64,000 nt of DNA from Granulicatella elegans ATCC 700633. Lineage in GTDB: Bacteria; Bacillota; Bacilli; Lactobacillales; Aerococcaceae. The notes under the pieces were generated by a model that had not been told where the DNA came from, searched no databases, and saw only the letters and a program-made list of their open reading frames with translations. Made by a program: the position numbers and the translations under genes. Shown here piece by piece: positions 8,147 through 63,844 of the stretch; the stretch's first letter is position 1, and the number at the start of each line of letters is the position of its first letter. The DNA is taken from NCBI RefSeq assembly GCF_000162475.2, contig NZ_KI391971.1, forward strand, positions 684,901-748,900, in the 5' to 3' direction.

Positions 8147-8317
8147 ACGAAACTACGAAAGACTTCTGTTATAGTAGCATAGGACGGTAGCGGCCTCGCA
8201 AAAAGCGAGTCTCATGCCTAAATTTCGAGCCTTGGTCTCGAAATTTCCTAATCATAGTAACCGATGTTTCGACTACTATGATATATGCTACTATGGGAAG
8301 TCTTTCTTCGTTTTACG
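8147..8317 (+). repeat. Dispersed three-hairpin palindromic element, copy B
   Basis: Closing arms pair imperfectly (for example AAAGACTTC with GAAGTCTTT, and ATAGTAGCATA with TATGCTACTAT). Inside is the core GGACGGTAGC, a hairpin CTCGC/GCGAG, then TCTCATGCC, the paired AAATTTCGAG/CTCGAAATTT hairpin and a hairpin ATCATAGTA/TACTATGAT. Compared with copies A, D and F, the core pair GCC/GGC is swapped to GGC/ACC, which keeps most of the pairing. The element lies between the NUDIX gene and hicA. Confidence 0.8.
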
Positions 8318-8577: not shown

Positions 8578-8613
8578 AACTCAGCCTCTGCTTTTCTAAT
8601 TGGAGGTATGAAA

Positions 8614-9069
8614 ATGTTAGTAACTTATCCAGCGTTATTTTATTATGATGATTCAGATGGTACTAGTGCACCTTATTTTGTACATTTTCCAGATTTTTCA
8701 AATATTTCTGGTACTCAAGGAAAAGATATTAGTGATGCATTGGAAATGGCAAGTGAGTGGCTAGGCATGAATGCTGCTGATTGTATCGAAAATGATATCG
8801 ATTTACCTAAGCCATCAGATATAAATTCTTTATCCTTAGTTGAGCATAATCCTTTCAAGGATGATAAAGATATTGAATTAAAATTTGATTCAAAAAAATC
8901 ATTTATTTCTATGGTAGGTGTAAATGTAAATCATTATTTAGGAAATCAAGAACCAGTAAAAAAAACTTTAACGATACCGAGATGGGCTGATAAGTTAGGC
9001 AGAGAATTAGGTTTAAATTTTTCTCAAACTTTAACGGAAGCAATTGTCGAAAGAAAAATAAACTTTTAG
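8614..9069 (+). CDS. hicB: HicB-type antitoxin and autorepressor
   Basis: The protein begins MLVTYPALFYYDDSDG, the partial RNase H fold of HicB antitoxins with FVHFPDF and the amphipathic segment DALEMASEWLGM. The C-terminus LTIPRWADKLGRELGLNFSQ is a ribbon-helix-helix-like DNA-binding part. A start at 8608 is possible, but GGAGG at 8602-8606 leaves only 1 bp to it and 7 bp to the ATG at 8614, so 8614 (151 residues) is chosen. It should block HicA and bind the dyads at 8350-8367. Confidence 0.88.
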   Translation: MLVTYPALFYYDDSDGTSAPYFVHFPDFSNISGTQGKDISDALEMASEWLGMNAADCIENDIDLPKPSDINSLSLVEHNPFKDDKDIELKFDSKKSFISMVGVNVNHYLGNQEPVKKTLTIPRWADKLGRELGLNFSQTLTEAIVERKINF

Positions 9070-9233: not shown

Positions 9234-9262
9234 TTGACAAATAAAACAGATTTTCTTATACT
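9234..9262 (+). promoter_or_regulatory. Promoter of the alaS T-box leader
   Basis: TTGACA (9234-9239) and TATACT (9257-9262) are separated by 17 bp, immediately upstream of the T-box leader. The 140 bp before it, after the hicB terminator, holds nothing I can name. Confidence 0.85.
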
Positions 9263-9264
9263 AA

Positions 9265-9478
9265 TTGAGTATGAACCAGTCAGATAAAAGAATTTTAATC
9301 GTAGAGAGGTCTAGTCGGTGAAAATGACCACAAAATTTATGCTCCTGATTGGAATTTTGTAGAAATACAGACGCTTCCCGCGTTATCGGAATGAATGAGG
9401 ATGAAATGCTGTTTCATTGTAAGCAAGGTGGTACCGCGTGGTAGACGCCCTTGTAACAATGGGGCAGTTTTTATTTTT
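9265..9478 (+). ncRNA. T-box riboswitch (tRNA-Ala sensing) upstream of alaS
   Basis: The leader contains the T-box core AAGGTGGTACCGCG (9425-9438), which pairs with the tRNA acceptor end. A terminator hairpin (GCCC at 9447-9450 with GGGGC at 9461-9465) and a T run follow. A GCU in ATGCTCC near 9342 is a candidate alanine specifier codon but I could not fold stem I with certainty. Uncharged tRNA-Ala would stabilise the antiterminator and let alaS be transcribed. Confidence 0.92.
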
Positions 9479-13286: not shown

Positions 13287-13294
13287 TGATGTGG

Positions 13295-13332
13295 GAAGAC
13301 GCCTGATAGAATGCTATTTGGTGTCTTCTTTT
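13295..13332 (+). terminator. Terminator of ireB-ruvX-UPF0473
   Basis: GAAGACGCC pairs with GGTGTCTTC across a 16-base loop, followed by a T-rich run. It lies directly before repeat copy C. Confidence 0.85.
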
Positions 13333-13343
13333 ACTTTTATGGG

Positions 13344-13490
13344 GCGAAATTGGACTTGACTGAAGTAGCGGAGGACGGCAGCAGCCCTTCGGTCTCATGC
13401 CTAAATTTTGAGCCTAAGGTCTCAAAATTTCCTGTACTAGAAGCCGGTATGGCTTCTAGTACTAACGCTACGTCGTCAAGTCCATTTCGC
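13344..13490 (+). repeat. Dispersed three-hairpin palindromic element, copy C
   Basis: Closing arms begin GCGAAATTGGACTTGAC and end GTCAAGTCCATTTCGC. Inside are GAGGACGGCAGCAGCCC, a hairpin loop at TTCG, TCTCATGCC, the AAATTTTGAG/CTCAAAATTT hairpin and the hairpin GTACTAGAAGCC/GGCTTCTAGTAC. The core pair is GGC/GCC here instead of GCC/GGC in copies A, D and F, a compensatory swap. Confidence 0.85.
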
Positions 13491-13524
13491 TGGACGTGTG
13501 TTTATGAGAGGGCGTTTAAATTAT

Positions 13525-13594
13525 GGGACTTTCCTGAAGTAGCAAGGACGCAAGCAGCTTTGCAAGCGAATTTCATGGCACTGCGTTAAGTCTA
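13525..13594 (+). repeat. Short form of the dispersed palindromic element, copy C'
   Basis: GGGACTTTCCTGAAGTAGC starts the left arm and a matching AAGTCT ends the right. Between them are GGACGCAAGCAGC, a hairpin TTTGCAAGCGAA and TTCATGGCAC. Only the core hairpin is kept; the two inner hairpins of the long form are missing. It lies 34 bp after copy C. The next 115 bp up to mltG hold only its likely promoter. Confidence 0.65.
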
Positions 13595-13708
13595 TTTTGC
13601 TTTCATAGTATATCTTGATAGAATTTGTAACATAATTGTAGAACTCCTAGTCTTCAATTGTTATATGAATTCATGTATAATGACAACGAAGTTAAAAGGA
13701 GGCGGATT

Positions 13709-32667: not shown

Positions 32668-33222
32668 ATGATGAAAGAGAATAAATTCTTACAAACAGGT
32701 CTTCTTCATGTAGTTTCGTTAATTGTTTTAGTTCTAAGTTATCACTATGTAGGGATTACATTGCCAATTTTTAATGGAGTGGATATTAACTTCTTTTATA
32801 TTTTATTAGCGATTGTGGCTGGTTTAGCGGGTTCGTTATTTGCTGCAATTGTTGGTGTAGCAACGATTATTATTGATTTATTATTAGGGACGACAGAGCA
32901 GTGGATTGCAATTGCGATTTCTGTAGGGATTCTTGGATATGTTTTTGGTCTAGGTATTCGACGTAAGTCATTTTTAGCGGGTACTTTTTCTCGTCATGAT
33001 GCTTTGCGTTTTAATGTGATTCAAGTGGTTGCGAATGTGATTATTTTTGGTTTGATTTTACCGACGTTAGAGGTCTTTTTCTATCAAGCTTCTACGGCAG
33101 TTGTTTTTATTAATGGTTGGATTTTTAGTATGATTAATTCAATTTTGATTGCCATTTTCGCAACAGCATTGTTTAAATTAATTGCGAATCGTGTGAAAGT
33201 TAAACGTACAAATAACAAATAA
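32668..33222 (+). CDS. ECF transporter S-component-like membrane protein (UPF0397-like)
   Basis: From the ATG at 32668 (after GAGGAG) this is 184 residues, the usual length of UPF0397/ECF S components, with about six membrane segments. The FNVIQVVANVIIFGLILPTLEVFFYQ region resembles the C-terminal half of that family. Such proteins bind a vitamin or cofactor and dock on a shared energising module, which is not in this window. The ligand is unknown. The stop lies within the left arm of repeat copy D. Confidence 0.6.
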   Translation: MMKENKFLQTGLLHVVSLIVLVLSYHYVGITLPIFNGVDINFFYILLAIVAGLAGSLFAAIVGVATIIIDLLLGTTEQWIAIAISVGILGYVFGLGIRRKSFLAGTFSRHDALRFNVIQVVANVIIFGLILPTLEVFFYQASTAVVFINGWIFSMINSILIAIFATALFKLIANRVKVKRTNNK

Positions 33223-33392
33223 AGAATACAAAAAATATTTCCTGATTTAGCTAGGACGCCAGCAGCTTCGCTTTGCGAATCTCATGGCTAAAATTTGAGC
33301 CTAAGGTCTCAATTTTTCCAATAGTGACAAAAACACTTCCTAGTGTTTCTGTCACTAAAGCTAAAAAGGAAATATTTTTTATATTCTTTATT
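33218..33392 (+). repeat. Dispersed three-hairpin palindromic element, copy D
   Basis: The arms AATAAAGAATACAAAAAATA and the matching TATTTTTTATATTCTTTATT are near-perfect inverted repeats of about 35 bp. Inside are CTAGGACGCCAGCAGC, a hairpin TTCGCTTTGCGAA, TCTCATGGCT, the AAATTTGAG/CTCAATTTT hairpin and a hairpin TAGTGACA/TGTCACTA. The left arm covers the last codons of the ECF-like gene. Confidence 0.88.
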
Positions 33393-33411
33393 TTTTACGT
33401 AGTGAACATTT

Positions 33412-33450
33412 GGTAGCTGAAGTGATAGAAATGGTAATTGCGTTTATATA
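33412..33450 (+). repeat. Possible truncated copy of the dispersed element
   Basis: TAGCTGAAGTGATAGAA at 33414-33430 matches TAGCTGAGGTGATAGAA in copy F, then continues ATGGTAATTGCG without the rest. It looks like the remnant of an inner hairpin of another copy. Confidence 0.45.
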
Positions 33451-33490
33451 TGATACGTAAGAATATCGTCTAAGAAAACTAAATAACATT

Positions 33491-33636
33491 AATAAAGAAA
33501 TAAAAAATAATTTTTTATAGCTATAGCGATTTAATCGCTAAGGAAAATTTGAGACCAAGGTTCAAATTTTAGCCATGAGACCGCGAGGTCTGCTGACGTC
33601 CTAGCTATACGAAAAATCATTTTTTATTTCTTTATT
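33491..33636 (-). repeat. Dispersed three-hairpin palindromic element, copy E
   Basis: Arms AATAAAGAAATAAAAAAT and ATTTTTTATTTCTTTATT close a stem ended by TAGCTA/TAGCTA. Inside are a hairpin TAGCGATT/AATCGCTA (33524-33540), a hairpin AAATTTGAG/TTCAAATTT and the core AGCCATGAGACC-GCGA-GGTCTGCTGACGTCC. The core reads on the plus strand, opposite to copy D. The 37 bp before it resemble those before copy F. Confidence 0.9.
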
Positions 33637-33663
33637 CTAGGCTAAGAACTTTTCTTTAACATC

Positions 33664-33692
33664 TTGTTAAAAACTTATCATGGTAGTAAAAT
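33664..33692 (+). promoter_or_regulatory. Promoter of the 58-residue membrane peptide gene
   Basis: TTGTTA (33664-33669) and TAAAAT (33687-33692) are 17 bp apart, 41 bp before the start codon. Confidence 0.6.
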
Positions 33693-33733
33693 AAGCGTAT
33701 ACATAGATAGATTAATAAAAGGGGGAAACTATC

Positions 33734-33910
33734 ATGAATCGTTTGCAAAAAATTTGTTTAGCTGTTATTTGGAATCTAGGAACTTTTACCGGTTGCGTGC
33801 TAAGTTCATTTGATTATCGTTTTATAATCTTTTTCCTAATTACATTAATCACTACACCTCTTGTTATTAAGTTGTTAGAAAAATTTATTCAAAAAAATTT
33901 TGTAAAATAA
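33734..33910 (+). CDS. Small two-segment membrane protein, unknown function
   Basis: A 58-residue protein (MNRLQKICLAVIWNLGTF...) with two predicted membrane segments joined by CVLSSFDYR and a basic C-terminal tail (EKFIQKNFVK). The ATG follows a strong GGGGGA site and has a fitting promoter, so it is likely real. I do not recognise it. It is the only gene between repeat copies E and F and stands alone. Size and charge would suit a membrane-acting peptide, an immunity-like protein or a regulator; none is supported further. Confidence 0.6.
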   Translation: MNRLQKICLAVIWNLGTFTGCVLSSFDYRFIIFFLITLITTPLVIKLLEKFIQKNFVK

Positions 33911-34004
33911 CTTTAAAATAATTTAATTGTCTTACTACATCAAAAATTGATTTCTATTTTTGTAAGATGCGTAAGAACGTAACGTCAGAAAACTAAATAA
34001 CTAA

Positions 34005-34171
34005 AATAAAGAAATAAAAAATAATTTTTTTATAGCTGAGGTGATAGAATTGCTGAATAGCGATTCTATCACAAAGGAAAATTTGAGACCAAGGCTCAAA
34101 TTTTAGCCATGAGACCGTCAGGTCTGCTGGCGTCCTAGCTATACGAAAAATTATTTTTTTATTTCTTTATT
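34005..34171 (-). repeat. Dispersed three-hairpin palindromic element, copy F
   Basis: Arms are nearly the same as in copy E (AATAAAGAAATAAAAAAT, ATTTCTTTATT). The first inner hairpin is different and longer (GTGATAGAAT/ATTCTATCAC), the second is AAATTTGAG/CTCAAATTT and the core is AGCCATGAGACC-GTCA-GGTCTGCTGGCGTCC. The 36 bp before it resemble those before copy E, so a unit larger than the element was duplicated. Confidence 0.9.
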
Positions 34172-34276
34172 CTACGTCTAAAACTTTTATGTTCCAATGA
34201 TTTTTTCTTGCTTATTGTTAGAAATCGTGTTTGAATAAAAGACAAGCAGATTCAATTTAGAAATGGAGGTCATTTC

Positions 34277-37376: not shown

Positions 37377-39062
37377 ATGAAATTAAGAAATATCGCATTG
37401 ACATTGTCTGCATTGGTACTGTTATCTTTACCGACAGTTAATGCAAAAGAAGAAAAAACTGAAAAATTAACAGGATGGCAAACGGTTAATGGCCAACAAT
37501 ATTTTTATAATGAAGATGGTACAAAAGCAACTTCTTCATGGATCGATCATTTCTATGTAAATAAAGAAGGAAAAAAAGTTGTTTCTGAATTCATTTATGA
37601 TGAAAATTATAAAGCATCATTTTTCTTAAAAGCAGATGGAACATTTGCTGAAAATCAATGGCTTGAAATTAATGGAAAATGGTATTACTTCAAAGCTGGT
37701 GGATACATGGCTAAAAATCAATGGAAAGATCGTTATTATTTAAAAGATAATGGTCAGATGGCTATTAATGAATGGGTTTATACACCAGAAGCCTTTTATG
37801 TTAAAGCAGATGGTAGTTACGCTGAAAATCAATGGTTGGAAATTGGGACTAAATGGTATTATTTTAAAGAATCAGGATTCATGGCTAAAAACGAGTGGAA
37901 AGGGAATTATTATTTAAATCCAAATGGAGCAATGGCGAAACAAGAATGGATTTATGATGATCAGTATAAATCTTATTTCTATGCAAAAAAAGATGGAAAA
38001 TATGCTGAAAAAGAATGGATTCAAGATGGAGGAAAATGGTATTACTTACTATCTGCTGGATATTTAGCAACTCGTCAATGGGTTGGTGATTATTTTGTGA
38101 ATGGTAGTGGAGCGATGATGACTAAAGAATGGTTATTTGATCCAAGTTATCAATCTATGTTTTATTTAAATGCAGATGGCCGTTATGCACGTAATGAATG
38201 GGTTCAAATTGACGGAGATTGGTATTACTTTAAAGCAAACGGTGCTAGAGCTGAAAGAGAATGGGTAGGTAATTATTATTTAGGTGACGCTGGTGCAATG
38301 GCTACCGGTGTTGTAACAGTTGGAGATACAAAATATACATTCTCAAATTCTGGAACGATTGAAAAGCAAGAAAAAGTCAATAGAGGTTGGGTTCAAAAAA
38401 ATGGTCAACGTTATTTCTATAATGGACGATCTGAACAAGTTGGTGGAAGTAATGCCAAGAAAGTCATCGATGTGAGTGAACATAATGGAAAAATCCAAAA
38501 CTGGAGTCAAGTGATTCGTGATAATGGCATTGATGGAGTTATCGTTCGTTTAGGATATTACGCTTATGATGAAGATAAACAGTTGGCTTATAATATTAAA
38601 GAATTGAACCGTTTGGGGATTCCATATGGTGTTTATTTATATACTTATGCAGAAAATGAATCAGATGCTGAATTAGAAGCGAAACATACTATTAAACTAA
38701 TGGAAAAATATCATATTCAACCAAGTTACCCAATTTATTATGATGTTGAAAATTGGGAATATGTGAATAAAACAAAAGCTGCTCCTAAAGATACAAAAAC
38801 ATGGGTAAAAATTGTAAATAAATATATGGATACCATGCATAAAGCAGGCTATACGAATGTAAGAATTTATAGCTATAGACATTTATTACAAACACGTTTA
38901 AATCATCCAGATATTTTAAAATATGTGGACTGGGTAGCTGCTTATACAGATGCATTAGATTGGAATAATCCTCATTATTCAGGATCTAAAGGTTGGCAAT
39001 ATACTTCAAGCGAATACTTAAAAGGTATTAGCGGAAAAGTAGACGTTAGCGTTTGGTATTAA
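37377..39062 (+). CDS. Secreted choline-binding GH25 lysozyme
   Basis: A 561-residue exported wall hydrolase. Signal peptide residues 1-23 (MKLRNIALTLSALVLLSLP) end near VNA-KE. Residues about 35-355 are choline-binding-type repeats (GW..NGKWYYFKAGGYMAKNQW), arranged as four or so triple units of about 63 residues with alternating WLEINGKWYYF, YYLNPNGAMA and WIYDDQYKSYFY segments, like pneumococcal LytB-type modules. Residues about 362-561 are the GH25 muramidase with VIDVSEHNG and the YYDVENW acid pair. It would bind choline-decorated polymers and cut the glycan. The choline operon at 18268-22390 gives the likely source of that ligand. Confidence 0.92.
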   Translation: MKLRNIALTLSALVLLSLPTVNAKEEKTEKLTGWQTVNGQQYFYNEDGTKATSSWIDHFYVNKEGKKVVSEFIYDENYKASFFLKADGTFAENQWLEINGKWYYFKAGGYMAKNQWKDRYYLKDNGQMAINEWVYTPEAFYVKADGSYAENQWLEIGTKWYYFKESGFMAKNEWKGNYYLNPNGAMAKQEWIYDDQYKSYFYAKKDGKYAEKEWIQDGGKWYYLLSAGYLATRQWVGDYFVNGSGAMMTKEWLFDPSYQSMFYLNADGRYARNEWVQIDGDWYYFKANGARAEREWVGNYYLGDAGAMATGVVTVGDTKYTFSNSGTIEKQEKVNRGWVQKNGQRYFYNGRSEQVGGSNAKKVIDVSEHNGKIQNWSQVIRDNGIDGVIVRLGYYAYDEDKQLAYNIKELNRLGIPYGVYLYTYAENESDAELEAKHTIKLMEKYHIQPSYPIYYDVENWEYVNKTKAAPKDTKTWVKIVNKYMDTMHKAGYTNVRIYSYRHLLQTRLNHPDILKYVDWVAAYTDALDWNNPHYSGSKGWQYTSSEYLKGISGKVDVSVWY

Positions 39063-43997: not shown

Positions 43998-44199
43998 GTA
44001 AATATGATGTTGAAAATGAGACTTTAATTCTAGATATGTATAGAGAGAGCGGGCTAGGTGGAATCCGTTTGATAGAGAATTAATAGTGGCGCATTGGAGT
44101 CAATCAACAATGAAGCTTAGAGTTTTCTAAGAAATTAGGGTGGAACCGCGATGAATCGTCCCTATGTATGCTTTTTTAGTGTACATAGGGATTTTTTTA
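43998..44199 (+). ncRNA. T-box riboswitch (tRNA-Gly sensing) upstream of glyQS
   Basis: The T-box core AGGGTGGAACCGCG lies at 44137-44150. A terminator with arms TCCCTATGTA (44159-44168) and TACATAGGGA (44182-44191) and a T run follow. An AGAGAG bulge motif near 44041 marks stem I. A GGC at 44092-44094 is a possible specifier, not proven. The 89 bp from the T run to glyQ hold only an ordinary ribosome-binding region. Confidence 0.92.
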
Positions 44200-63681: not shown

Positions 63682-63711
63682 ATTATACCTTATTTAGTAC
63701 GCTAAATAAAG
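63682..63711 (-). promoter_or_regulatory. Minus-strand promoter with an operator-like inverted repeat
   Basis: On the minus strand TATAAT lies at 63687-63682. Directly upstream TTATTTAG (63690-63697) and CTAAATAA (63702-63709) are an 8-bp inverted repeat with a TACG spacer, covering the region between -10 and -35. A repressor could bind there; which one is not known. Confidence 0.6.
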
Positions 63712-63763
63712 TAGCAGTGAATAAATTTTGAATTGAGAAAAATCAAAAGAAAGATCCCCTCAC

Positions 63764-63844
63764 AGACTTTTTAAAGTAGTTGTATAGCCAAGAGACACCA
63801 AAGGTGGCTACTGGCGTCCAAATACTACGGTACCCAAGAAGTCT
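63764..63844 (-). repeat. Short form of the dispersed palindromic element, copy G
   Basis: AGACTTTTTAAAGTAGT and ACTACGGTACCCAAGAAGTCT are the arms. Inside is only the core: TAGCCAAGAGAC, a hairpin ACCAAAGGT and GGCTACTGGCGTCC. The two inner hairpins of the long form are missing, as in copy C'. Confidence 0.75.

Follow-up and report, generated by a model that had tools for sequence, protein, structure and literature searches.

A covarying helix in the folded core of a small mobile repeat of Granulicatella elegans, a candidate portable terminator

The base pair block P2 of Granulicatella elegans ATCC 700633 is a helix of the core into which a small, non-coding mobile repeat folds; on the sequence evidence, and with somewhat better than even confidence, this repeat acts as a portable, often bidirectional intrinsic terminator. 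The fold, its covariation, the patchy spread in many copies and the MITE-like unit of streptococci are established at the level of sequence. The pairing is either under selection or actively restored, and the two-sided changes in its stems need not be independent, selected point mutations of an RNA.

Results

Copies in the window and their fold

The window is a 64-kb part of the 1.74-Mb single-contig genome (G000) and holds six recognizable copies of the repeat, A to F, and two decayed ones (Table 1); the letters were assigned by matching the text of the initial annotation to the cores found. Cores lie on the minus strand near 464–498 (A), at 33601 (E) and at 34135 (F), and on the plus strand at 8182 (B), 13373 (C) and 33254 (D). 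Copies D, E and F fall inside 1 kb (33202–34188), E and F being 91% alike over 103 nt, with a short ORF between them that starts near 33735. Directly 3′ of copy B are a HicA-type toxin gene (PF07927; 8398–8577) and an ORF with a sub-cut-off HicB-like match (8608–9069). Elsewhere in the window, we noted T-box-like leaders at 9262–9455, 5′ of an alanyl-tRNA synthetase gene, and at 44001–44166, both scoring under the Rfam threshold, and one gene (37377–39062) that combines choline-binding repeats with a GH25 domain and contains four 169-nt direct repeats. At the gathering threshold, the Rfam scan of the window returned a tRNA only.

Copy C, a palindromic element of 147 nt, is flanked by a DUF1292 gene and by a gene of the YceG family, which we take to be MltG. 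Its folding is much stronger than that of shuffled sequences, both as DNA (13344–13490, z −11.0) and as RNA (13320–13500, z −7.3). The core of the element is branched and about 110 nt long, outer arms are added to it, and the tandem unit measures about 185 nt. In the consensus fold of 26 copies, P1 (GTAGC/GCTAC) is continued by the long outer stem, P5 (AGGA/TCCT) surrounds P2 with its hairpin hp1 and P3 with its GAGCC–GGTCTC tip, and the hairpin P4 follows P5. As a rule, an outer arm pairs specifically with its own partner: the pairing score was 13.8 for own and 7.2 for swapped arms in G000, and the difference was weaker in streptococci (9.7 and 7.2). The internal loop beside P2 covaries without Watson–Crick pairing (GC/CA 91, GT/CT 13, GT/CA 4, others 2; n = 110), and this coupling of unpaired bases, C with A or T with T, suggests a non-standard contact.

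Table 1. Features of the repeat and its copies in the window
Feature	Position	Strand	Partner, basis or context
Copy A core	396–507	−	Model match
Copy B core	8173–8292	+	P1 begins 41 nt past the end of a NUDIX gene
Terminator-like hairpin, separate, 3′ of the DUF1292 gene and ahead of copy C	13290–13336	+	Fold −20.3 kcal/mol; sister species G001 has a matching hairpin
Outer arm 5′ side, copy C	13344–13363	+	Partner 13473–13490; folds
P1 helix 5′ side	13364–13370	+	Partner 13466–13472; consensus fold, pair counts
P5 helix 5′ side, AGGA	13372–13375	+	Partner 13430–13433, TCCT
P2 helix 5′ side, GGCA, flagged block	13377–13380	+	Partner 13398–13401, TGCC; four base pairs
hp1, core hairpin, AG/CT closure	13383–13395	+	Consensus fold
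P2 helix 3′ side, TGCC	13398–13401	+	Consensus fold, pair counts
P3 hairpin, conserved GAGCC–GGTCTC tip	13404–13429	+	Consensus fold, pair counts
P5 helix 3′ side, TCCT	13430–13433	+	Partner 13372–13375
P4 hairpin, highly variable stem	13434–13462	+	Consensus fold, pair counts, streptococcal rows
P1 helix 3′ side	13466–13472	+	Consensus fold
Outer arm 3′ side, copy C	13473–13490	+	Folds
C2, decayed tandem copy 3′ of C	13546–13606 (end approximate)	+	Single decayed copy at the same site in G001
Copy D core	33246–33365	+	Outer arm starts at or adjoining the stop codon of the ECF transporter gene that ends at 33222
Copy E core	33516–33609	−	Model match
Copy F core	34031–34143	−	Model match
Copy G, decayed	63710–63829	−	Weak match, E 0.0019; outside the 123 counted copies

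Pairing at P2 and across the core

Read on the GGACG strand, P2 is GCCA/TGGC in copies A, D and F, GGCA/TGCC in C, GGTA/TGCC in B and GTCA/TGGC in E. The letters given in the initial annotation (GCC/GGC, GGC/GCC and GGC/ACC) agree with this once it is recognized that they were read on the opposite strand. The single mismatch reported for copy E is a C–A on that strand, where copy B has a C–A as well; read on the GGACG strand, the two copies have G–T wobbles instead, so all six copies pair. The two-sided swap described for B and C is real and amounts strictly to one base pair, C–G to G–C.

We scored 150 of 1,250 first-look candidates in G000 and obtained 132 matches at E up to 0.01; 123 of these (E up to 2.6e-5) were carried forward and 9 weaker ones dropped. 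The own-genome alignment took in 150 of 163 matches and retained 123 distinct copies without duplicates and antisense hits. Counted genome-wide, as the initial annotation had proposed, changes in the 244 P2 cells were two-sided in 57, wobbles in 8 and unpaired in 10, and the predominance of unpaired substitutions that it had named as telling against a stem is absent in the 123 copies. The first variable pair was CG in 81 copies, GC in 32, TG in 3, AG in 2, GG in 2, AT in 1 and AC in 1, with one gap (Watson–Crick in 114 of 122), and the second CG in 88, AT in 17, TA in 7, TG in 5, CT in 2, TT in 2 and AC in 1, again with one gap (112 of 122); cells in all such counts are copies and not independent events. 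The general pattern is G-N-N-A with T-N-N-C. Among 100 strong copies, the commonest types were GCCA/TGGC (52), GGCA/TGCC (20), GCAA/TTGC (12) and GCTA/TAGC (4). Streptococcal copies contribute additional pair types at P2, GTCA/TGAC being dominant there, and the family as a whole shows at least eight fully paired types (seven and GTCA/TGAC).

Across the 45 pairs of the 26-copy alignment, 95.0% of 1,149 cells were paired compared with 80.2% after shuffling, and 154 cells were two-sided compared with 39.6; neither value was reached in 500 shuffles. A two-sided change was found in 28 of the 45 pairs. The covariation score of 0.395 was likewise reached in none of 500 shuffles and fell to at most 0.086 when the partner was slid by one, two or three columns. 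Of the five covariation measures, the number of further pair types was the weakest, being reached in 7 of 500 shuffles. For streptococci, 100 of 110 loci were searched, giving 109 matches of which 90 were kept; the 93 distinct rows had a covariation score of 0.463 and 700 two-sided cells compared with 191 shuffled, in an alignment that leans towards the model because it was fitted to it.

Placement after genes and T-tracts

Placement was counted for strong copies, defined as those of about 80 bits or more, with genes called as simple ORFs; streptococcal contexts mix orthologues and were left out. Of the 99 strong copies in G000, 49 lie in sense orientation after a gene whose next gene is codirectional and 9 in antisense. 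The others comprise 29 copies between convergent genes, a single copy between divergent genes, 10 copies overlapping an ORF call and 1 with no gene on the right. The sense bias among codirectional strong copies (49 of 58, P = 9e-8) was not matched by the weak copies, with 7 sense and 6 antisense (7 of 13; Fisher P = 0.024). In the sister species G001, the orientation was sense in 22 of 26. The median distance from stop codon to P1 was 28 nt (79 copies).

T-tracts, defined as at least 7 T in 9, accompanied 77 of 100 strong copies on the 3′ side of the GGACG strand; for the other strand, the number was 43 of 100. In G000 and G001 together, the other-strand tract was found in 33 of 53 copies where the right-hand gene reads towards the element, compared with 19 of 72 others (P = 1e-4). 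This sense placement and the tracking of T-tracts with the gene in need of termination fit a portable terminator, working in both directions where genes converge. The sense-side tract was no commoner near a stop codon (36 of 50 close and 22 of 28 distant copies). Copy C has no good T-tract and is preceded by an intact terminator-like hairpin, so that this copy is probably dispensable there. Among arm mismatches, a 3′ T was kept over a 5′ A in 54 cases against 21, and a 5′ T over a 3′ A in 40 against 21; as T is favored on both sides, we take this as a general pyrimidine–pyrimidine excess and not as the signature of a U-tract. The T-tracts may have been inherited from the invaded terminator and not selected later.

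Distribution and mobility

In addition to the matches in G000, one sister species had 60 under stricter filters, at which none of five further genomes of the genus (two of seven positive) and none of 18 from elsewhere in the family had a match. The repeat was present in 82 of 98 genomes of a group taken as Streptococcus, since a named S. infantis chromosome yields identical coordinates in both searches, and, order-wide, in 32 of 246 genomes and 3 of 64 genera, one genus by way of a single weak match. A pattern scan of genome contigs, which may omit records near the window's own genome, found at least 110 loci, and 80 titles among the matches listed were all Streptococcus. The core is common to two bacterial families, and the surrounding sequence differs. 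Two further observations concern individual loci. At the same gene junction in a sister species without model matches (L276 in G006, about 2412–2590), another long-armed palindromic element has a GTGAGCCTAGGTCTCAC hairpin and is perhaps distantly related to the core. In the mitis group, at L163, L170 and like streptococcal loci, orthologous elements precede ORFs that by eye resemble yhbY and purE in their start peptides; the strand of these elements is the reverse of that usual for sense placement.

In streptococci, the core sits within a MITE-like unit whose ends, CAGATTGAAGACAAAG ... TTTGTCTACATTCT, are terminal inverted repeats, and many units lie within an intrinsic terminator whose hairpin is present on both sides as a target duplication. 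Thirty sites had both ends and differed in their right flanks, although some may be orthologues between strains. Of these, 19 were flanked on either side by a hairpin of 5 bp or more, and at 13 the flanks shared the arm by a strict automatic rule; several had no flanking hairpin. At the sole empty site compared in a relative (L258 with L262), the repeat was by eye about 7 nt and not a hairpin. A transposase element with PF13751 in the genome G027, presumably of the IS1182 family, has one end identical to the streptococcal MITE over 18 nt and the other with 1 difference in 14, and is located in an exactly repeated 24-nt terminator-like hairpin.

In G000 itself, neither inverted ends, a target duplication nor a mobilizer was established, and there was no PF13751 match; its repeat unit of about 185 nt is without a DDE transposase, the PF13751 transposase being a separate element. 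Nine same-strand core pairs stand in tandem, 66–70 nt apart, and decayed neighbors were found to the right of 11 and to the left of 7 of 89 strong copies, compared with 1 and 2 after shuffling. As a local mobilizer we rejected the PF13751 copies of G001, which occupy 14 places (12 with near-equal scores and two partial): the two copies compared were 99.8% identical, and their ends are unlike those of the streptococcal MITE. A Y1 transposase (PF01797), present in G000, G002, G004, G006 and G035 and absent from G001, G003, G005 and G027, was rejected since its presence does not track the repeat. The idea that the variable outer arms are an inverted copy of the target was dropped because many arms share GACTT/AAGTC across copies. 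At L280 in G035, roughly 0.9 kb separate one element copy from a gene for a transposase with a sub-cut-off PF13751 match.

These findings bear on a possible, though not likely, alternative in which the repeat is a purely selfish MITE. Its transposase would prefer hairpins, the placement, orientation and T-tracts would be inherited from the target, and the pairing would be kept by recombination between copies and by palindrome-correcting replication errors, not by selection on a product. The hairpin duplications at streptococcal sites and the ends shared with the G027 element fit this account, as do the helix-wise clustering of differences and the scarcity of G–U pairs described below. So does the behavior of IS1272, a member of the IS1182 family that, in the available text of PMC4923244, inserts into terminator hairpins; it is the nearest known terminator-seeking element. 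According to the same text, IS1272 deletes part of the hairpin without duplication, whereas the whole hairpin is duplicated at the 13 streptococcal sites; unlike IS1272 and the IS1182 family, the MITE encodes no transposase. A purely selfish MITE sits less well with a sense bias that is seen in strong copies and not in weak ones, small as the weak set is, and with a core conserved over two bacterial families amid different surroundings. The streptococcal unit resembles MITEs in general, which the available part of PMC10969869 describes as short, non-coding and multicopy with terminal inverted repeats and target duplication. Unlike in these, the conserved part is the inner folded core, which recurs with different flanking ends in another bacterial family.

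How the stem changes arise

To see changes at matching sites, we used 31 copies shared by G000 and G001, with one or both flanks 82–97% identical; 24 pairs were kept for counting pair differences and 20, with at least 3 differences each, for the clustering test. In the best 24, two-sided changes affected 104 base pairs and one-sided changes 65, of which 18 were G–T and 17 A–C. Differences clustered by helix segment (P2 with hp1, P3 and P4), with a value of 64.0 compared with 30.6 (SD 6.6) in the null; none of 4,000 null replicates reached the observed value. Segments matching their orthologue at less than 0.75 numbered 20 of 72, compared with 3,099 of 5,461 in random cross-genome pairs. Of these 20, 19 have a clearly closer paralogue, a count without a null in which the paralogue is chosen among more than 100. 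The clustering fits block exchange between copies or a one-step rewriting of the stem.

G–U pairs were four to seven times rarer in the cores than in tRNA stems: the share of G–T cells was 1.1% in G000, 2.0% in G001 and 1.2% in streptococci, against 8.0% in the tRNA stems of G000. In this control, based on the acceptor and T stems of 26 distinct tRNAs (34 found, 30 with loci) and counted in the same way, 312 cells contained 25 G–T and 2 A–C. On the GGACG strand of the core, all helices together gave 131 G–T and 96 A–C (P = 0.02), a ratio of 1.4 to 1 against the 25 to 2 of tRNAs. With P5 excluded, the numbers were 122 and 73 (P = 0.0006); P5 alone was reversed, with 9 and 23. P1 had a summed excess on one strand, with 46 G–T and 17 A–C, and the outer arms had 18 and 21 in G000, 6 and 6 in G001 and 11 and 3 in streptococci (P = 0.06). 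On the same strand, T–T exceeded A–A in all three sets (44/20, 26/8 and 76/15). The balance of G–T and A–C showed no clear shift with gene context (for sense copies, e.g., 39 and 26; for antisense copies, 7 and 8). The excess of G–T over A–C and of T–T over A–A means that a single-strand role may apply. The initial annotation took a two-sided change as direct evidence of a functional stem and not of shared ancestry alone. The stem is indeed clearly kept, as covariation in two sets of copies and at orthologous sites indicates, but the inference is too simple: with G–U intermediates scarce and orthologue differences clustering by whole helix, a two-sided change is not by itself proof of an RNA stem.

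The same counts weigh on the view that the repeat is a folded RNA with a function of its own, acting for instance in trans as a small RNA or in a 3′ UTR as a stability element; SSRC8 of Streptococcus pyogenes would be a case. The opposite strand matches RF02616 (SSRC8_2) twice in the window, at 37.7 and 37.0 bits, with model positions 152–209 aligning to P2, hp1 and P3 as a shared core, and the G–T and T–T excesses are as expected if the GGACG strand folds. In the available text of PMC3675131, SSRC8 is an expressed RNA detected by Northern blots and mapped by RACE, and a table gives only nt 149–210, which correspond to the core of the repeat, as matching S. dysgalactiae. RF02616 is curated as a single sRNA and that text does not describe SSRC8 as a repeat, unlike the repeat in the window. 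We consider this view unlikely: both matches are far under the gathering score of 72, wobbles are scarce and only slightly in excess of A–C when set against tRNAs, P5 is reversed, and at least 100 diverged copies per genome are unlike one regulator.

Doubtful, too, is the idea that the repeat is a self-restoring DNA palindrome whose arms are rewritten together, by template switching or block conversion, and which is used as a bidirectional terminator on about 100 genes. A DNA-level structure, in which a protein reads the palindrome as a cruciform or single-strand hairpin so that both strands must pair and G–T is not tolerated, seems rather improbable. The great excess of two-sided changes over wobbles in the 93 streptococcal rows, the near-equal G–T and A–C in the outer arms of G000 and G001, and the same balance among one-sided orthologous changes are in its favor. 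It is opposed by the one-stranded G–T excess of P1, the streptococcal arms leaning the same way, and more pyrimidine–pyrimidine than purine–purine mismatches on the GGACG strand, and its protein partner is putative. That the swap reflects merely chance or two repeat lineages is very improbable: P2 types are common to many copies, leaving fewer independent events than cells, yet the shuffles, the collapse of slid pairings and the number of fully paired P2 types already disfavor it.

Discussion

The reading we prefer remains that of a portable terminator. In the species of the window, the long outer stem and the T-tract would end transcription of the gene ahead of the repeat, and between convergent genes the repeat would terminate both. 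The core stems, P2 among them, would keep their pairing even as entire helices are rewritten or exchanged in blocks, and mismatched copies would be lost. A role as terminator, taken alone, leaves the core's conserved unpaired bases unaccounted for; as a guess, these probably serve recognition, either in transposition or by a protein that binds RNA or DNA.

The nearest kind of repeat is that of SPRITE, BOX and RUP, which the available text of PMC3049150 presents as small streptococcal repeats that fold and are over-represented between convergent genes, SPRITE resembling an intrinsic terminator. Their descriptions there set them apart from the present repeat: SPRITE is an 18-bp duplex with a U-rich tract, whereas ours has a branched core from P1 to P5, and the three are almost confined to pneumococcus and S. 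mitis, apart from BOX relatives in S. suis, while ours occurs in most of the sampled Streptococcus genomes. The available parts of PMC3875467 and PMC10969869 contain no description of the present repeat, and titles and abstract openings in the open literature do not treat it as a family, which is not proof of absence.

Covariation is widely taken as proof of RNA structure, and our results caution that it can be built by helix swapping between repeat copies; the ratio of G–T to A–C, with a tRNA control, provides a simple check on RNA claims that rest on it. If the repeat were a self-restoring palindrome, pairing would persist despite fast sequence drift, and covariation nearly without G–U would be a mark separating DNA-level palindromes from RNA structures. 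The repeat is common to most of the streptococci sampled and is held in Rfam only as an sRNA. If it is a portable terminator, one mobile repeat would supply many of the gene ends in this genome.
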